From Methanocalculus alkaliphilus (lineage in GTDB: Archaea; Halobacteriota; Methanomicrobia; Methanomicrobiales; Methanocorpusculaceae), in contig NZ_JALJYG010000002.1 in NCBI RefSeq assembly GCF_024170505.1, forward strand, positions 62,001 through 126,000: a stretch of 64,000 bases of DNA, written 5' to 3'. Shown here one piece after another: positions 34,713 to 41,973 of the stretch; position 1 is the stretch's first letter; each line of letters starts with the position of its first letter. Position numbers and translations under genes: made by a program. The notes under the pieces were generated by a model. The model was not told the origin of the DNA. It saw nothing but the letters and a program-made list of their open reading frames with translations, and did no database searches.

Positions 34713-36548
34713 TCAGGCGACCGGGGCTTCCGATATCTTTGCGATCAACGCTTCGATGACAGTCGCCCGCATGCCCTCCACAAACTTGATGCTGCCGACG
34801 ACAAGGTGTCCTCCACCGTTTACCCCCCCGCCGGAGATCTCATCACGCAGCTCCCGAACCATCCTTGGGATATTCATCATCACGCCGCGTGAACGGAGGA
34901 CTGCAAAGTCTGGTCCAAGGCCAAGGGTGACGACAGGCTCTCCTTCATGTTTTTTACAGAGGATATCATGTATCTCTCCTGATGTCTTCCCCGGTGGGGG
35001 GAAGGTGAACCGGTGTGCATACATCTCAACATCAGCGATGAACAGATTGGCTCCCGATGCGAGCTGCCGTGCTTCAACATGAGGCATAAGGGTTCTGACC
35101 TGCTCTTCGATTGCAGCTGTTGCCTCCTCGACGAGGAGGGAGATAAGCCTTTTATGCCGCATTGGATTGTTATTCAGATTCAGAATATCCCTGACGATCT
35201 CACGCCCGTCATTAAACCTGAGCCAGAACTGCTGATAATCAAGAGCGAGTGCAATCTTTTTACAATCCTCAACAGAATAGTTTTCTTCAACAAGTGCGAG
35301 ATACTGTGGAAGTTCGGTGGACTCACTCCTGTCCCCGACACCAGCAATGGCCGGAAGATGGCGGATGCGATCTTCAATGTCCGGATTGATCATTCTTGCC
35401 AGCTCGGTGCCGATCATTCCTGCTGTTAATCCAAAGTCTCCGTTGGCATGGTACGGGTTGACATGGGCCTTTAGGAACTGATCGACGATCTCATCAGGGT
35501 GGTGATGATCAGCAACAACGATATCAAGGTCATATACCTGTGCAATCTTATATGCAGGCATATCCTCTTCGGTTGAACCATTATCCATCAGGAAGATGAG
35601 GGGGAGTTTCTGGCCAAATCGGACCGCATCTTTTAGCATAAAGTCGAGATCTCTTGTGATATCCTCAATCTCGTAGAACGGTGCCTTTGAAGGTGAGCGT
35701 TTAAAGAGATAGAACTCGGCATCTGAGTCATTGCCATGCTCACGAAGGAGGGAGACGACCGCAGTCTCAATTGCTGATGCGGCACAGATACCGTCAGCAT
35801 CAGCATGGTGTCGCAGAATGATCGGCTGCTGAGTAAATACTGCCCGCCTGATGATCTTTGCAAGCTTGCGCATCTCCGGTCTGAGCCTGGTGAGCACCTC
35901 ACTCTCAACGAGGAATGAATTGTCCGCAGGTTCGGAACGGATGCTCAGTGCTTCTTCGATTCGACCCTTCACAATCTCTGCAGCCTCGCCTTTCAGAACC
36001 TCAAGGCTTGAGACCTCAATCTGAAGCTGGTTGTTCCTCTTCATCACCTCTCCGGAGACGCGGACGATGTCACCTGTATTAGCCTCAGGGTATGCACGAA
36101 CACCGGCCTCGATGAAGGCAGCCGCGCTCTCACTTCCGGTTTCATCGATGATGGTAAAGATGGTGGGGCCACTCGTCTGCTTAACCTGGCCAAGCTCGCC
36201 TTCGATGGTGACACGCCGGCCGATCCGCCCCTTCAGATCAGTCAGCTGTGTTGTTTTTACCTGTCTGCTTACAAGCTCTGTCGTGTATTCCTCAAGAAGA
36301 ACTTCACGGAGATCGATATTTCCATTTGGGCGGACCTGTACAACCATCACGAGGATATCAGCCCGCTCGTTGTGTTGTGTCAGCGCATTACTTTTATGGA
36401 TCAACCCTTTGATGGAGTTATTCAACTGGACGAAGGTTCCAAAGTTTGCAAAACCCTGGACTTTTCCAAGGTAAATGTTCCCCTCCTGTACATCCTCAAC
36501 CTCACATCCAGGGCCGAGTTTATAAACAATTTCTCTATTATTTGCCAT
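34713..36548 (-). CDS. DHH-family phosphoesterase with S1 and OB domains (RecJ-like)
   Basis: A 611-residue archaeal RecJ-like protein. In order: an S1 RNA-binding domain (about 15-75, LGKVQGFANFGTFVQL), an OB-fold nucleic-acid domain (100-195, GRRVTIEGELGQVKQTSGPT), a DHH phosphoesterase core (ILRHHADADGICAASAI, IFLMDNGSTEEDM, VVADHHHPDEIVD, ending HVNPYH) and a DHHA1-type tail with EISGGGVNGGGHLVVGS. The acidic and histidine metal sites look intact, so it is probably a nuclease on single-stranded DNA or RNA. The ATG at 36548 is preferred over the GTG at 36578, which overlaps the neighbour stop. Last gene of the long reverse operon from nrdG. Confidence 0.88.
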   Translation of the reverse strand: MANNREIVYKLGPGCEVEDVQEGNIYLGKVQGFANFGTFVQLNNSIKGLIHKSNALTQHNERADILVMVVQVRPNGNIDLREVLLEEYTTELVSRQVKTTQLTDLKGRIGRRVTIEGELGQVKQTSGPTIFTIIDETGSESAAAFIEAGVRAYPEANTGDIVRVSGEVMKRNNQLQIEVSSLEVLKGEAAEIVKGRIEEALSIRSEPADNSFLVESEVLTRLRPEMRKLAKIIRRAVFTQQPIILRHHADADGICAASAIETAVVSLLREHGNDSDAEFYLFKRSPSKAPFYEIEDITRDLDFMLKDAVRFGQKLPLIFLMDNGSTEEDMPAYKIAQVYDLDIVVADHHHPDEIVDQFLKAHVNPYHANGDFGLTAGMIGTELARMINPDIEDRIRHLPAIAGVGDRSESTELPQYLALVEENYSVEDCKKIALALDYQQFWLRFNDGREIVRDILNLNNNPMRHKRLISLLVEEATAAIEEQVRTLMPHVEARQLASGANLFIADVEMYAHRFTFPPPGKTSGEIHDILCKKHEGEPVVTLGLGPDFAVLRSRGVMMNIPRMVRELRDEISGGGVNGGGHLVVGSIKFVEGMRATVIEALIAKISEAPVA

Positions 36549-36574
36549 ATTACTACCAGATTTCTCGTATAATC

Positions 36575-37786
36575 TCACTGCTCTGCCTTGGAGAGGTCAA
36601 ACAAACGACACTCTCCATCACGGCGTCCTTTGGCGATGATGGTATCGCCCTCATACAACCGTGCATTCTTTTTTGGTCGATAGATCCATTGTTCCCCGCG
36701 TTTGATCGCAAGGACGATCATGCCTGTTACTGCGCCAAGGGAAGCTTCCTTCAGGGTTTTACCATCAAGGAATGAATCTGCCTGAACATCAATCCGGGAG
36801 ATTATCTCATCTGATTCCCGAATAATCTTCTTGAAGATCGGAGGAATCTCAATATCACGTCTGATGACATCAACAATAGATGAAGCTGCACTGCAGATTG
36901 CATCAGCAAACGCGGCCATATGCAGGAGGCCCCGGAGACTCTCGATGGGCTCAATCTTCTTTGCCTCCTCCAGAACCCAGAGCTCAAGGGAGAGGCGCAT
37001 CGAATCCATCCGTTCATTGAGCCAGAACACCTCCTCTGCAATATCCCTGCTATCGAAGAGGAGTGCAGTATATGCAAGCCCGACCGCAAGCTCACTGATA
37101 TTCTTCATCTCGACGATCAGAAGTACGGCACGATCAAGGTTGTCAACCGGCTGGCCAATACCTGAATCTATCTCCGGGAGGGCATTTCCTGCCAGTCGCC
37201 AGAGGGGATCGATTCCATCCTCAGGCCCTTTGGCGATCAGGACATCCCCCCGCTCAAGGCGTGTATTCTTATCCGGATCATAGATCCAGAGACGCCCGCG
37301 TCGAATTGCGATAATCCGCATTCCGGTTGTGCTCTGAAGGCGGATATCTCCCAGAAGGGCAGCGGTAAGGTCGCTGCTTTCCAAAACCTCGATCCGGACG
37401 GTGACCTCTTCTGCTTCCGGGAGGGCACGGCGCATTCTGATTGGGATCTGAATACCCTTCAGTATGACGTTTGCAATGTCTGAGGCGGCATTGGATATCC
37501 GCTCAGCACCTTCTGCAATCTGAAGGAGACCGCTCATCGACTCGGCCTCCTCCATCCTCCTGGCTCCAAGAATACTTGTTATTCTGGCCTGGTAGAGAAG
37601 CCGGTTCATCGATTCCTCAAGGTTGACAACTTCACGGGCTATCTCCTTACTCTCAAAGAGGATAGCCGAATATGCCAGATCGACCATCAACTCAGAGACA
37701 TCCTTCATCTCAATGAGGACATCCTTGAAATTGACAGGCTGACGATCAAGGTCGAACATATCTTCATTATCTACTGTATCTGGCAC
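36575..37786 (-). CDS. tandem PhoU-like/TrkA_C domain protein
   Basis: A 403-residue soluble protein made of two similar halves. Each has a helical PhoU-like part (DVLIEMKDVSELMVDLAYSAILFESKEIA and VEMKNISELAVGLAYTALLFDSRDIA) followed by a TrkA/RCK C-terminal domain (TGMRIIAIRRGRLWIYDPDKNTRLERGDVLIAKG and TGMIVLAIKRGEQWIYRPKKNARLYEGDTIIAKG). RCK_C domains bind small ligands and gate channels and transporters. It begins with a GTG nine bases after the MgtE gene, so it is likely the regulatory partner of that transporter. No membrane segment. Confidence 0.88.
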   Translation of the reverse strand: MPDTVDNEDMFDLDRQPVNFKDVLIEMKDVSELMVDLAYSAILFESKEIAREVVNLEESMNRLLYQARITSILGARRMEEAESMSGLLQIAEGAERISNAASDIANVILKGIQIPIRMRRALPEAEEVTVRIEVLESSDLTAALLGDIRLQSTTGMRIIAIRRGRLWIYDPDKNTRLERGDVLIAKGPEDGIDPLWRLAGNALPEIDSGIGQPVDNLDRAVLLIVEMKNISELAVGLAYTALLFDSRDIAEEVFWLNERMDSMRLSLELWVLEEAKKIEPIESLRGLLHMAAFADAICSAASSIVDVIRRDIEIPPIFKKIIRESDEIISRIDVQADSFLDGKTLKEASLGAVTGMIVLAIKRGEQWIYRPKKNARLYEGDTIIAKGRRDGECRLFDLSKAEQ

Positions 37787-37795
37787 TACTTATCA

Positions 37796-39001
37796 CTATA
37801 GCACCAGGTGGATCATCATGATCAGCACAGTCGCCCCGATGAGGTCGATACTGCTTGTCACCACCGGGATGCCGAAGTTATCAGGATCATACCCGAGGGT
37901 AAAGGAGATACTGGCTGTCATATAGGCGAGGAGGTTCATCCCGGTGACGACAATGAGGCCCGACCCGGTTGCAATGGCAACCATGAGCAGCAGTCCGGGT
38001 GAGTCAAGTCCGATCAGGAGGGCCGAATAATGAGCGATGGACCCCATCAGCGGGAGTATTGTTAACGTATAGATGTAATTGGTTCCAAATCCTGAGAATA
38101 CCTCCCGGCCAGGTATCAGCTTCGGCTCAATCGAACCCATATGCATCCCGGTCGCAAGGCGGGAGCAGATGATCCCTCCGATGGCTCCACACCCGTTCAT
38201 AAAAGGAGGGATCAGTATAAGAAGAGCTGCTGTCGCAACAAGGTCCTCCAGCCCCTCAGTGTAAACAACACCGGCGATGGTTCCAAGGATGCAGAGGGGT
38301 GCCAGAAGTGGCAGACCTTCCCTGATGATCGACTGTACAGTATCTGTCCCTTTCAGCGTTCCAATTATGCTGAGGATGAGGAGAAGAACAACGACTCCCA
38401 GCAGGAGATACCTGACAGACGGGGGAAGCCCGACGACGAGGACGGCAGTAATAACAAGGAGCGGGAGGGTGATGACATCCCCCGCTGTGGTGACGGTTGG
38501 CGCTCCGATCATATCCAGATCGACTGAGTACCTGTAGGTTGCAAGGGAGACGATGAGTGTGATGAGGGTGACGATCACCCCTGCGAGACAGCCGGATATG
38601 ACGGAGATGAGGATCATATCCATCACAGGGATGATATCAAGGCCGGCTGCAATACCGATGATATACCCAAGCAGACCGACGATTGCAGCGATGAGGACAG
38701 TAAGGATGAAGGTTGCCCTGAGGTTATCACCAAGGACAGAGCCTTCTTTATAGTCAATATCAAAAGCACCGATATGCATCGCAGATGCCAGCCTGGATGC
38801 AAGGATACCGGCGATCGCCCCACGCATGTTAATGGACGAGGGGACGAGGATCATCAGTCCCGGTATGAGAATGAGTATCTCATTGACAGAACCAAGATAG
38901 ATTCCTGCTATTGAGGCGAAGACGGTCGTCAGGAGAAGTGCAACGAGACCCGCCAGGAAGTTCTGATGCCTGCGAAGGAGGCCGGCTATCATTTGGTTCA
39001 T
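37796..39001 (-). CDS. MgtE/SLC41-type divalent cation transporter, two fused halves
   Basis: A 401-residue membrane protein with two copies of the MgtE integral domain: GSVNEILILIPGLMILVPSSINMRGAIAGILASRLASAMHIG in the first half and ILIPPFMNGCGAIGGIICSRLATGMHMG in the second, about ten helices in all. The cytosolic N and CBS domains of bacterial MgtE, which sense magnesium, are absent. A GGAGG nine bases upstream fixes the ATG at 39001. The following PhoU/TrkA_C gene may supply the missing regulation. Confidence 0.88.
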   Translation of the reverse strand: MNQMIAGLLRRHQNFLAGLVALLLTTVFASIAGIYLGSVNEILILIPGLMILVPSSINMRGAIAGILASRLASAMHIGAFDIDYKEGSVLGDNLRATFILTVLIAAIVGLLGYIIGIAAGLDIIPVMDMILISVISGCLAGVIVTLITLIVSLATYRYSVDLDMIGAPTVTTAGDVITLPLLVITAVLVVGLPPSVRYLLLGVVVLLLILSIIGTLKGTDTVQSIIREGLPLLAPLCILGTIAGVVYTEGLEDLVATAALLILIPPFMNGCGAIGGIICSRLATGMHMGSIEPKLIPGREVFSGFGTNYIYTLTILPLMGSIAHYSALLIGLDSPGLLLMVAIATGSGLIVVTGMNLLAYMTASISFTLGYDPDNFGIPVVTSSIDLIGATVLIMMIHLVL

Positions 39002-39022
39002 CAATAATGTCCTCCATCTTCA

Positions 39023-39964
39023 TCAATCCCGGTATGGTATCTCGATCATCGAACAATCCTGTGGAAGCAGGACTTCTCCTGTATACTGTCGTTCTGCATC
39101 CTGTATATGACTAACCGTTGATGTGTAGCGTGAACTGATGTGTACGAGTGCCAGACGGCCCGCTCGGATCAGAGCCGCAGCCCGACCCGCTCCCCCGGCC
39201 GTCGAATGGTAGACCTCGGCAGATCGTTTCTCCTCTGCATCATCAAAGGTAGCATCATGGATGAGAAGGTCGGCATCATCTGCGGCTTTCGGCCAGCGGG
39301 CGAGAGGGCGTGTATCGCTGGTATAGACGACCACCCTGCCGGGGCGTGACGTACCCATCACCTGATCCGGCCGGATGGTGGTTGCTCTACCATCGACAGT
39401 AACAGTAACCTCTTCCCCTCGCTGAAGCCTCCCGAAGAGTGGACCCGGCGGAATACCCAGTCTGATTGCTTCTTCCCGATCGAACCGGCCCGGGCGATCA
39501 TCCTCCCTGAGGATAAAGCCGTAGCTTTCACACCCATGCCGGGTTGCAAATGCAATCACCCGGTAGCCGTCAAACTGAATCTCCTCCCCATCCGAGAGCT
39601 CCCCCGCCTCTATTGGAAAAGAGATGGTCTGGTTCATCTGCCTGATGATCGAGAGGAACTCAAAGATACGGCGGGGTCCATAGAGCCTGAGAGGCTCTGT
39701 CCGCCCATTGAATCCCATCGTTTCGATAAGCCCGAAGAGCCCGAGATAGTGGTCCGCGTGCCAGTGGGAGATGAAGATGGCATCAACGGTGAAGCCCGTC
39801 CTGGCACGCATCATCTGCTGCTGGGCACCCTCGCCGCAGTCGAAGAGGAGGGTATCTGAGCCCCGTCTGATCATGATGCAGGACGGGTTCCTCTGTGGTG
39901 TCGGCAGGGCGCCCGCAGTACCGAGGAAGTGAACATGAAGTGTCTCTCCCGCTATAATGACCAA
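39023..39964 (-). CDS. rnz: ribonuclease Z
   Basis: A 313-residue tRNA 3'-processing endonuclease of the metallo-beta-lactamase fold. It has LHVHFLGTAGALPTPQRN at the start, LLFDCGEGAQQQM, the zinc motif ISHWHADHYLGL, GPRRIFEF, VVYTSDTRP, LIHDATFDD and the final LVHISSRYT, all expected in RNase Z. The family normally starts just before LHVHFLGT; no ATG is available in frame, so a TTG at 39964, overlapping the upstream gene by 13 bases, is the likely start. Neither tRNA-Thr, tRNA-Arg nor tRNA-Glu in this window encodes its CCA end, so all need such 3' processing. Confidence 0.93.
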   Translation of the reverse strand: MVIIAGETLHVHFLGTAGALPTPQRNPSCIMIRRGSDTLLFDCGEGAQQQMMRARTGFTVDAIFISHWHADHYLGLFGLIETMGFNGRTEPLRLYGPRRIFEFLSIIRQMNQTISFPIEAGELSDGEEIQFDGYRVIAFATRHGCESYGFILREDDRPGRFDREEAIRLGIPPGPLFGRLQRGEEVTVTVDGRATTIRPDQVMGTSRPGRVVVYTSDTRPLARWPKAADDADLLIHDATFDDAEEKRSAEVYHSTAGGAGRAAALIRAGRLALVHISSRYTSTVSHIQDAERQYTGEVLLPQDCSMIEIPYRD

Positions 39965-40725
39965 CCCCTGATGACGGCGAGGCTCTCTCTGGCTTCATCG
40001 AGATCTCTCCCCTCAATCACGATGACTCCGCTATATGAATCACGTACAGCAGCTGCTACCTTCTCCCAGTTGATGGTGCCGCGCCTCAGGGCAAGATGTT
40101 CATCCGAGCTGCCATGATTGTCGTGGAGATGGAGGTGATCTGCATCCCCGATATGTGTGAGGAACTCCTGTACGGTTCCGGTTGTATTGGCATGGCCAAT
40201 ATCAAATGTCATCCCGATTCCGGGGATATCTTCCACCATCCCGAAGAGCTCCAGGGGATCGCGACAGAGAAATTCTTTGATGGATATCATATTCTCGAGG
40301 CAGGCGAGGAGCCCATACTCTTCTGCAACCGCACCGATCTCCCGGAGTGCATCTTTCTGGAGTCCCCAGGCACGCCCGGGATCGAGTTTGGCTATCGGGG
40401 AGAGGTAGCCGGGATGTATCGTCACACGGCTGGTGAGATCGGCAGCATGTTCAATGCAGAGGCAGGTCTGGCGGATTGACTCACGCCATATCGGATAGTT
40501 AAAGGATGCAAGATTCAGGTCACCATAGGGGGCGTGGACGGTTATTCCAAGATCCGTACTCCCGATGATGTCGAAAATTATTCTTCTCTTTTCGGGATCA
40601 TCAAGCCGGTACCGCCCGTCTGCAGAAATCTCCCATCCATCATATCCTGCATCTTCGATTCCAAAGACCCATTCCGGGTCGTCCCATACCTTGGAGGAGG
40701 ATGAAAAGTAGATGCCGTTCTTCAT
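39952..40725 (-). CDS. xylose isomerase-like TIM-barrel protein
   Basis: A 257-residue member of the same barrel family as the 15457 gene, with ITVHAPYGDLNLASF, VTIHPGYLSP, LLACLENMIS, GMTFDIGHANTTG, HLHLHDNHGSSDEHL and the late VIVIEGRD carrying the expected metal ligands. The likely reaction is isomerisation or epimerisation of a sugar-like substrate; the substrate is unknown. It starts in an ATGA overlap with the UPF0200 gene and ends overlapping rnz. Confidence 0.87.
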   Translation of the reverse strand: MKNGIYFSSSSKVWDDPEWVFGIEDAGYDGWEISADGRYRLDDPEKRRIIFDIIGSTDLGITVHAPYGDLNLASFNYPIWRESIRQTCLCIEHAADLTSRVTIHPGYLSPIAKLDPGRAWGLQKDALREIGAVAEEYGLLACLENMISIKEFLCRDPLELFGMVEDIPGIGMTFDIGHANTTGTVQEFLTHIGDADHLHLHDNHGSSDEHLALRRGTINWEKVAAAVRDSYSGVIVIEGRDLDEARESLAVIRGWSL

Positions 40726-41270
40726 GGCTGATCCCGTAGCTCCTGTAACACTCTTCTCACTTCTTCACAAAATGATTGCAGGCTGCCGGTATTGGATATC
40801 CGTCTGTCCGCACTATTCATCGCCTCACCGAGGCCGAAACTGCACTCCCGGTCATCCCGGGATCGAAGATCCGCCTCACTGAGGGTATCATCTGAGCGGC
40901 CCCGTTCCTGAAGACGGGAGAGCCTGAGATGGAACGGGCAGTCTATTGCGATCAGTGTGAAGTCATCAAATTTTGATCTGAAATACTGTACTTCAGCCAC
41001 ACCCCGTATCCCGTCGATGAGGAGGATGGGGGCATGATGCTCTTTGACAGCGGGGACCGTCAGTTCGGCCAGAGCTGCCATTCCCCTCTCCTCCCTCAGA
41101 CGGCGGGCAATCGTTCCAAGGTGCTGATCGGTCGCCTCAACCCCCTCATCCTGTGCATACGCCCTGATAATATCACCCATGATAACCACAGGGATGCCAA
41201 GCTCCCCGGCTATGGAGGAGCATTCACCTTTGCCGCTCGCCGGAAGACCGACCAATCCTATTACCTTCAT
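40722..41270 (-). CDS. UPF0200-family nucleotide kinase-like ATPase
   Basis: A 182-residue P-loop protein: VIGLVGLPASGKGECSSIA at the start is a kinase-type Walker A, followed by VVIMGDIIRAYAQDEGV, LLIDGIRGVAEVQYFR and a lid-like RLSRLQERGRSDD. It matches the archaeal UPF0200 group, related to dephospho-CoA and adenylate kinases, whose substrate is not established. GGAGAG seven bases before the ATG supports the start although the upstream nrdG gene reads 47 bases into it. Confidence 0.85.
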   Translation of the reverse strand: MKVIGLVGLPASGKGECSSIAGELGIPVVIMGDIIRAYAQDEGVEATDQHLGTIARRLREERGMAALAELTVPAVKEHHAPILLIDGIRGVAEVQYFRSKFDDFTLIAIDCPFHLRLSRLQERGRSDDTLSEADLRSRDDRECSFGLGEAMNSADRRISNTGSLQSFCEEVRRVLQELRDQP

Positions 41271-41973
41271 ATCGTATCTCTCCTTCTTCCCGCGTTCTGA
41301 TGATGACAGGACGCCCGATTCCGTCTGCTATCTGCCTGAGTTCGTCTGGTGAGAGGGGGCGTACCCGTCCGTATATCCCCTGCTGGAGGACGAGATCAAC
41401 CCCTTCAGCCTCGGATGAGATATACCTGACCTCATCCTCATATCCCCGGAAGAGGGTAACCACAACCTGGAACTCCGGGAGTTTTCCTTGTATAAATGCT
41501 CTTTTGCAGACCTTGAGTGTTTCCTGTACAGCAAGGGCATACTTCTCCCGAAGGAGATTGTCATATCTGTTCCATCGTGCCTTGATATCGAGGGCTATCC
41601 GATCGACTGATCTCTCTGCTATCAGATCTGAAATGACAGCAGGATAGACGCCATTTGTATGAAGTCCGACGAGGAACCCTTCACCTTTAGCCCGTCGGGC
41701 AAGTTCAATAAGTGCCTCTCCCTGCTGTGTCGGTTCACCGCCGGAGAAGACAACCCCCGAGACCGCTATTCTGGTGGAGCGGATCAGATCGATGATCTCA
41801 TCAGCCGGGCGGTAATCTTCGCCATTCTGGAGGTTCCTGTTATGGCAGTAGTCACACCTGACCGGACACCCTCTGAGGAAGACGGTGCATACAGCACGCC
41901 CCGGCCAGTCGACAGTACTGATAGGAATAAAGCCACCAAAATTAACGCGCAAAAAATCACCGGCAGGATACAT
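41224..41973 (-). CDS. nrdG: anaerobic ribonucleotide reductase activating protein NrdG
   Basis: A 249-residue radical SAM activase that installs the glycyl radical on the anaerobic reductase NrdD. GFIPISTVDWPGRAVCTVFLRGCPVRCDYCHN holds the CxxxCxxC cluster site, and VVFSGGEPTQQ and GLHTNGVYP follow. This archaeal type is longer than bacterial NrdG. The ATG at 41973 or a TTG at 41952, preceded by GGTGAT, may be the start. nrdD is not in the window. It heads a seven-gene reverse operon; the last ~15 residues lie in the overlap with the next gene. Confidence 0.85.
   Translation of the reverse strand: MYPAGDFLRVNFGGFIPISTVDWPGRAVCTVFLRGCPVRCDYCHNRNLQNGEDYRPADEIIDLIRSTRIAVSGVVFSGGEPTQQGEALIELARRAKGEGFLVGLHTNGVYPAVISDLIAERSVDRIALDIKARWNRYDNLLREKYALAVQETLKVCKRAFIQGKLPEFQVVVTLFRGYEDEVRYISSEAEGVDLVLQQGIYGRVRPLSPDELRQIADGIGRPVIIRTREEGEIRYEGNRIGRSSGERQR

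Follow-up and report, generated by a model that had tools for sequence, protein, structure and literature searches.

The question raised by the locus described here is how an MgtE-type transporter that lacks its cytosolic sensor is controlled. Archaeal MgtE proteins with doubled motifs and no CBS domain are already known from the accessible part of a review (PMC9276622), which also calls for comparative genomics and remarks that the CBS-less MgtE/SLC41 proteins of archaea and metazoans "might be differently regulated"; the available portion of a second review (PMC13022745) gives the regulation of an algal CBS-less protein as unknown. In the window, a stretch of 64,000 nucleotides from Methanocalculus alkaliphilus, the gene of such a transporter is followed by that of a soluble protein made of PhoU and TrkA_C modules. 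No paper linking a CBS-less MgtE with a PhoU/TrkA_C protein was found in a literature search outside which most subscription journals lay, and a term search in the accessible parts of a Haloferax c-di-AMP paper and of a review of haloarchaeal function returned neither PhoU nor MgtE. We propose, with a probability of roughly 0.6, that the gene pair specifies a magnesium transport system of two proteins, an SLC41-like transporter and a detached regulator.

The two genes in the window

Table 1. Features of the transporter and regulator genes (positions in the window)
Feature	Position	Strand	Basis
CBS-less two-repeat MgtE/SLC41-like transporter gene	37796..39004	-	PF01769 x2, AF2 model, MgtE membrane-domain match
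PF01769 repeat 1, with residue 176 as putative pore Asp	38450..38845	-	Contig C2:100450-100845; Asp invariant in half and fused alignments
PF01769 repeat 2, with residue 387 as putative pore Asp	37817..38212	-	Contig C2:99817-100212; Asp invariant in fused alignment
Soluble (PhoU+TrkA_C)x2 putative regulator gene	36575..37786	-	Pfam PhoU x2 and TrkA_C x2, PH0236 match, AF2
PhoU module 1, residues 24-107, with E32xxxD36	37466..37717	-	Pfam, alignment
TrkA_C (RCK_C) module 1, about residues 133-192	37211..37390	-	
PhoU module 2, about residues 220-305	36872..37129	-	Pfam; limits from AF2 model
TrkA_C (RCK_C) module 2, residues 331-391	36614..36796	-	Pfam

The original prediction described an MgtE-like gene with two membrane halves and without N and CBS domains, and, 9 bases downstream, a soluble protein with two PhoU and two TrkA_C modules. 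Pfam confirmed both domain compositions, and the distance holds if the regulator begins at GTG 37786 (403 aa). Several of its aligned relatives begin near codon 10, so that a start at ATG 37759, with a gap of 36 bases, is also possible. The transporter ORF comprises 402 aa from TTG 39004, or 401 aa from ATG 39001. An RNase Z gene lies upstream of the transporter, and a gene for a HAN-like nuclease (772 bits, below the cut-off of 840) downstream of the regulator. As the genes are on the same strand and nearly contiguous from RNase Z through the HAN-like gene, these four probably form one operon. An Rfam scan of the window gave three tRNAs as its only matches and no magnesium riboswitch. On another contig, the Methanocalculus genome encodes one classical MgtE_N-CBS-MgtE protein, with both sensor domains present in Pfam; the CBS-less protein is therefore the second MgtE-type transporter of this genome, and not its sole one.

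A membrane protein with two MgtE repeats and no sensor domain

Two stretches of the transporter matched PF01769 (E 8.8e-27, 94.3 bits for a Pfam cut-off of 27.6), and no match to MgtE_N (PF03448) or CBS (PF00571) was returned by Pfam at E up to 1. The AF2 model (21 rows, pLDDT 88.9, pTM 0.86) contained 11 long helices, readable in this model as five, one linker and five. A phmmer search of the PDB with the transporter gave no match, and a half-repeat profile made from 22 half sequences found MgtE chains there with an E-value of 1.7e-8. In the VIA structural ranking, five MgtE entries came on top (Z 13.5-16.4), the best being 4u9l (Z 16.4, 177 residues, rmsd 3.9), and the next unrelated rows, Mce/Mla, scored Z 11.4 and below. 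Foldseek alone placed MATE proteins above MgtE, with weak E-values, none of them under 0.001.

Each of the 22 half sequences has the putative pore aspartate (D176) and the proline preceding it (P169), and D176 and D387 are conserved without exception in the 21 rows of the fused-transporter alignment. Compared with the P(D/A)x4Px6D motif given for the MgtE/SLC41 superfamily in the accessible part of PMC9276622, the closing Asp is present in the window protein, and the first Pro is replaced by Leu in repeat 1. The layout is of the SLC41 type, with two MgtE repeats in one chain and no CBS domain in Pfam. Because both repeats have PX6GA in place of the PX6GN motif, we name the protein SLC41-like and do not class it as an SLC41. 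Among the relatives, one fused MgtE gene situated away from the regulator (L060, genome G068) contains one in-frame TGA, possibly the mark of a pseudogene or a sequencing error.

Fused and split forms of the transporter

In Methanosarcinaceae and others, the transporter is made from two adjacent half genes, with ORFs of about 163 to 249 aa. All four half proteins scanned with Pfam were PF01769 proteins. Half genes overlap by 4 bases in many loci, and in the many Methanosarcinaceae loci concerned this suggests translational coupling; those of L120 and L068-L070 abut without spacer instead. In a tree of 62 halves, the N halves of fused transporters formed one group (100/99) and the C halves another (100/96), the former joining the first half genes and the latter the second half genes (100/99 on either side). 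This grouping points to one old duplication, prior to fusion or split. The fused form probably has a single origin, judging from the tree, and whether fusion or split was the direction of change depends on where its root is placed. The 813-aa open frame of genome G121 was considered as a natural fusion and discarded, since the ORF list separates the MgtE gene, of 402 aa, from that of RNase Z. No fusion of transporter and regulator was noticed among the loci inspected.

A soluble protein with two PhoU and two RCK_C modules

The regulator matched PhoU (PF01895) in two stretches (E 4.9e-13, 49.7 bits for a cut-off of 23.5) and TrkA_C in two more (E 4.3e-23), and had no Pfam match to TrkA_N/RCK_N at E up to 1. 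Its nearest named relative is from Methanocalculus (95% identity), its closest solved protein is PH0236 of Pyrococcus (1vct, E 1.4e-45, TMt about 0.90), and its profile relatives are KtrA/KtrC, MthK, KhtT and a phosphate-uptake regulator. The AF2 model showed two modules (pLDDT 85.7, pTM 0.85), which taken together also aligned with the whole PhoU 1t72 (TMt 0.65-0.68 over 295-302 columns). An E(D)xxxD motif is ascribed to the PhoU family in the accessible part of PMC5686610. The corresponding E32xxxD36 was found in 24 of 24 aligned regulators; in module 2, E232 was present in all 24, and position 236 was D in 8, G in 15 and S in 1. The ExxxD sites may bind metal. Both RCK_C modules were also kept in 24 of 24, which suggests ligand sensing.

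It had been pointed out that the two regulator modules match the two transporter halves in number. On the regulator side the match holds at 80 of 80 named loci, but it implies only that both proteins were duplicated, and PH0236 has one module.

Recurrent adjacency in several architectures

Among 80 named loci, an MgtE gene lay within 419 bases of the regulator in 55; 15 had none despite at least 1.3 kb on either side, and 10 were cut by contig ends. The 55 adjacent loci comprised 23 fused co-directional, 23 split co-directional, 4 fused divergent and 2 split divergent arrangements, plus 3 in which a single half ORF was read. A fifth architecture, split convergent, came from 41 genomes presumed haloarchaeal (their identity is inferred), all of which had regulator and MgtE-type matches. 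Half genes stood by the regulator, as read by eye, in 9 of the 41, convergently in eight (at about 1 kb in G129) and on both sides in G200, where a single regulator gene is flanked by two pairs of half genes (L082:2909-6576). By eye, the genes were adjacent in 4/4 genomes of the window's genus, 9/9 of family f2, 6/6 of f6 and 32/32 of f8. The Methanosarcinaceae loci kept the pair together, with none of the five other window neighbours in the flanks examined. Five architectures with different neighbours indicate that the link is more than an old unbroken block.

A block of rSAM, CoaE-like kinase, TIM-barrel and RNase Z genes (34713-41973 in the window) partly persists, in varying orientation, in some distant lineages (L068-L070, L072, L073, L079, L120, L149).

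The two genes are not always together. Eight of the 11 Methanocorpusculum-group loci (L109-L119) belonged to the 15 without an adjacent MgtE, and in 4/4 genomes of the sister genus the genes were apart or on different contigs. Of five f5 genomes, two had them within 0.5 kb, one at a distance of about 1.2 kb and two far from each other; in the sole f4 genome with both genes, they were 2.9 kb apart. None of the genomes with both genes in f9 (Archaeoglobaceae-like), f10, f12 and f22 had them adjacent, many having them on different contigs of fragmented assemblies. In lineages where the genes are apart, both are usually still present. Adjacency, the check put forward with the original prediction, was thus seen in 55 of 80 named loci, and failed in the sister genus, in the Archaeoglobaceae-like f9 and in several other families; frequent separation, named there as a refutation, counts partly against an obligate gene pair, but the functional link is strengthened.

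Co-inheritance of the two genes

Presence of the two genes was scored by strong matches in a sample of 246 genomes of the window's phylum, ten regulator matches with E-values of 1.8e-5 to 7.6e-4 and transporter matches at 1.4e-4 and 7.4e-4 being counted as absent. Both genes were found in 201 genomes, neither in 35, the regulator only in 8 and the transporter only in 2 (odds ratio 440, Fisher p 2.4e-32, uncorrected for shared ancestry). Read by hand at the genus level (n=96), 80 genera had both, 15 neither, and one (g86) a truncated regulator. The genomes with neither gene were distributed over f3 (15), f7 (7), f22/g47 (6), f14 (4) and f4/g7 (1), plus the incomplete G170 and G234, which corresponds to about five separate co-losses of the pair (f3, f4/g7, f7, f14 and f22/g47).

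Missing partners were sought with profiles in 26 selected genomes, including all 10 discordant ones. No MgtE-type match was obtained by these searches in seven of the eight regulator-only genomes, which are fragmented and 84-92% complete, and no regulator was detected in the two transporter-only genomes, G173 and G183, both 95% complete. The eighth regulator-only genome, G195, is 99% complete and has no half-gene pair. Its regulator ORF is reduced to a single PhoU and part of a TrkA_C, and its profile matches for the transporter were one CBS-bearing MgtE and one single-repeat ORF. We rejected the reading of it as an ordinary genome with regulator and MgtE, since the MgtE by the truncated regulator carries a CBS domain and the other match is single-repeat.

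Two loci of this genome deserve description. In L164 (G195:C1:2226500-2233500), from this presumed haloarchaeon, the truncated regulator ORF is directly followed by the CBS-bearing MgtE ORF, which may be a replacement still in progress. In L178:670-1916 (G195:C1:460500-463500), the single-repeat MgtE ORF overlaps a downstream ORF with, by eye, two CBS domains, and this could possibly be another MgtE with a detached sensor.

Control genes, likewise uncorrected for ancestry, were spread more evenly: HAN (E up to 1e-40) was present in 142/201 genomes with both genes and 26/35 with neither (p 0.84), and DacZ in 186/201 and 29/35 (p 0.10). TrkH, in 187/201 and 26/35 (p 0.002, ancestry uncorrected), showed a weak excess to which seven f7 genomes contributed most.

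The sensor-bearing MgtE as a possible alternative to the pair

MgtE_N was detected in 25 of the 246 genomes, one of them, G139, below the Pfam cut-off. It was present in 16/35 genomes with neither gene and 9/201 with both (p 1.5e-9), and, by genus, in 9/15 and 7/80 (p 3e-5), both tests being uncorrected for ancestry. Families f14 (4/4) and f7 (6/7) illustrate this complementarity. Replacement is nevertheless not general, since 19 of the 35 genomes without the pair also lack MgtE_N, among them 6/6 of f22/g47 and 11/15 of f3; pair and classical MgtE are both present in 3 of the 4 genomes of the window's genus. It is as if the pair can stand in for the sensor-bearing MgtE, as a tendency and not a rule. 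The f22/g47 genomes G048, G067, G079, G105, G115 and G181, nearly complete, gave no match to the pair, to MgtE_N or to DacZ.

Taken together, shared inheritance, an adjacency that recurs in several architectures and the complementary occurrence of the sensor-bearing MgtE support a functional partnership, and we consider it probable that transporter and soluble protein are partners.

Other roles for the soluble protein

Its domain names, and its profile relatives, from K+ systems and including a phosphate-uptake regulator, would also suit a protein serving K+ transport (TrkA_C) or phosphate transport (PhoU), whose place beside MgtE would be historical. Conservation of the wider rSAM-CoaE-TIM-RNase Z block in some lineages fits this, as do the excess of TrkH in genomes with the pair and, in L076, a Pit-like permease (by eye) about 3 kb from the regulator. 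However, TrkH is kept in most of the genomes without the pair (4/4 in f14, 6/6 in f22/g47 and 13/15 in f3), 14/201 genomes have the pair and no TrkH, and no K+ or phosphate transporter recurs by the regulator in 12 MgtE-free loci read by eye from ORF starts. As to a historical placement, in Methanosarcinaceae the link to MgtE has survived the wider block, and it reappears in new orientations. We regard this explanation as distinctly unlikely.

A ligand-specific form of the main explanation makes the regulator a c-di-AMP receptor, whose RCK_C modules would bind the nucleotide and shut the transporter, coupling osmotic signalling to Mg2+. The RCK_C relatives include SaCpaA (4xtt), KtrA/KtrC, BusR and KhtT, which have been linked to c-di-AMP. 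A DacZ gene is found convergently close to the regulator in G081, G112 (L078:2651-5392), G122 and G141, of one Archaeoglobaceae-like genus, and in the named Archaeoglobaceae loci L138 and L152 (DacZ being Pfam-confirmed in L078, L138 and L152), and at about 5 kb in G043, G159 and G198. This neighbourhood was seen in one family only, other f9 genomes (e.g. G075, G154, G057 and G117) having the two genes far apart, and DacZ is missing in 15/201 genomes with the pair yet present in 29/35 without it; a c-di-AMP receptor is on the whole unlikely. All the genomic evidence speaks for a functional link and not for its nature, and PhoU proteins often act as adaptors. The soluble protein might thus be a factor for assembly, stability or expression, neither gate nor sensor, a role which the retention of both RCK_C modules in every aligned regulator, with the ligand sensing it suggests, makes rather unlikely in our judgement.

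Discussion

Of the transporter with a detached regulator that was originally envisaged, the functional pairing is upheld by the three lines of evidence given above, while an invariable neighbourhood is not, the genes being often separated. The mechanism we favour is as follows. The membrane protein would be a pseudo-dimeric transporter of the SLC41/MgtE type, with two five-helix repeats and one extra helix, that kept both pore aspartates and lost the cytosolic sensor. The soluble protein would take over the role of the missing N and CBS domains. In the predicted structure, its pair of PhoU modules resembles a single complete PhoU in packing, and the protein would most likely bind the transporter on its cytosolic side, opening or closing it according to the state of the cell, the ligand being a divalent metal (at the PhoU ExxxD sites) and/or a nucleotide (at RCK_C). 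On sequence grounds, a metal signal is plausible from the PhoU ExxxD motif, and a nucleotide signal from RCK_C. Mg2+ as cargo, direct action on this transporter, the gating effect and the metal or nucleotide ligand are all steps that we infer. By analogy with KtrA, TrkA and KhtT, a soluble gating subunit bearing RCK_C would be the most economical mechanism; for gating through direct contact, we put the odds at about even. The general form of the proposal, in which a detachable PhoU-RCK_C protein binds the cytosolic face of CBS-less archaeal MgtE/SLC41-like transporters, senses metal and/or nucleotide and gates them, may equally well prove right or wrong.

The pair offers a specific candidate regulator for CBS-less MgtE, present in most sampled genomes of one archaeal phylum, which includes tractable methanogens and haloarchaea. 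If the proposal is true, the MgtE superfamily would contain a split-sensor system, which would serve in evolution as an alternative to built-in N/CBS domains and alternate with them between lineages. It would also provide a model for the control of sensor-less SLC41-type transporters, and may account for how those related to human SLC41 are controlled.

Comparison with known systems

The classical bacterial MgtE (e.g. 2yvx, 2zy9, 5x9h) and the archaeal protein have in common the fold of the membrane repeat and the pore P-x6-D aspartate. The archaeal protein differs in having no N and CBS domains, and in being made of two different repeats, in one chain or in two half genes, whereas the classical MgtE is a homodimer of two copies of one chain.

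Animal SLC41 proteins have a 5+1+5 helix plan, with 11 membrane helices, and Na+-coupled Mg2+ transport is a mark of the SLC41 type. The archaeal form is co-inherited with a soluble PhoU/RCK_C protein, and the window protein has PX6GA where the SLC41 motif is PX6GN. Two MgtE repeats and no CBS are common to both, as far as SLC41 is described in the accessible part of PMC9276622.

PH0236 of Pyrococcus horikoshii (1vct, 2bkn, 2bko, 2bkp) has the same PhoU+RCK_C module and the same fold as the regulator, with one module in 205 aa where the regulator has two in tandem. Its structures were released in 2005-2006 under the PDB titles "unknown function" and "putative potassium channel related", and the pairing of its two-module relatives with MgtE suggests a role for it.

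KtrA, TrkA and KhtT are separate soluble RCK_C subunits that control membrane K+ transporters. The regulator shares RCK_C profile matches with KtrA, KtrC and KhtT; it differs from KtrA and TrkA in having PhoU in the place of RCK_N, and a partner of the MgtE type.
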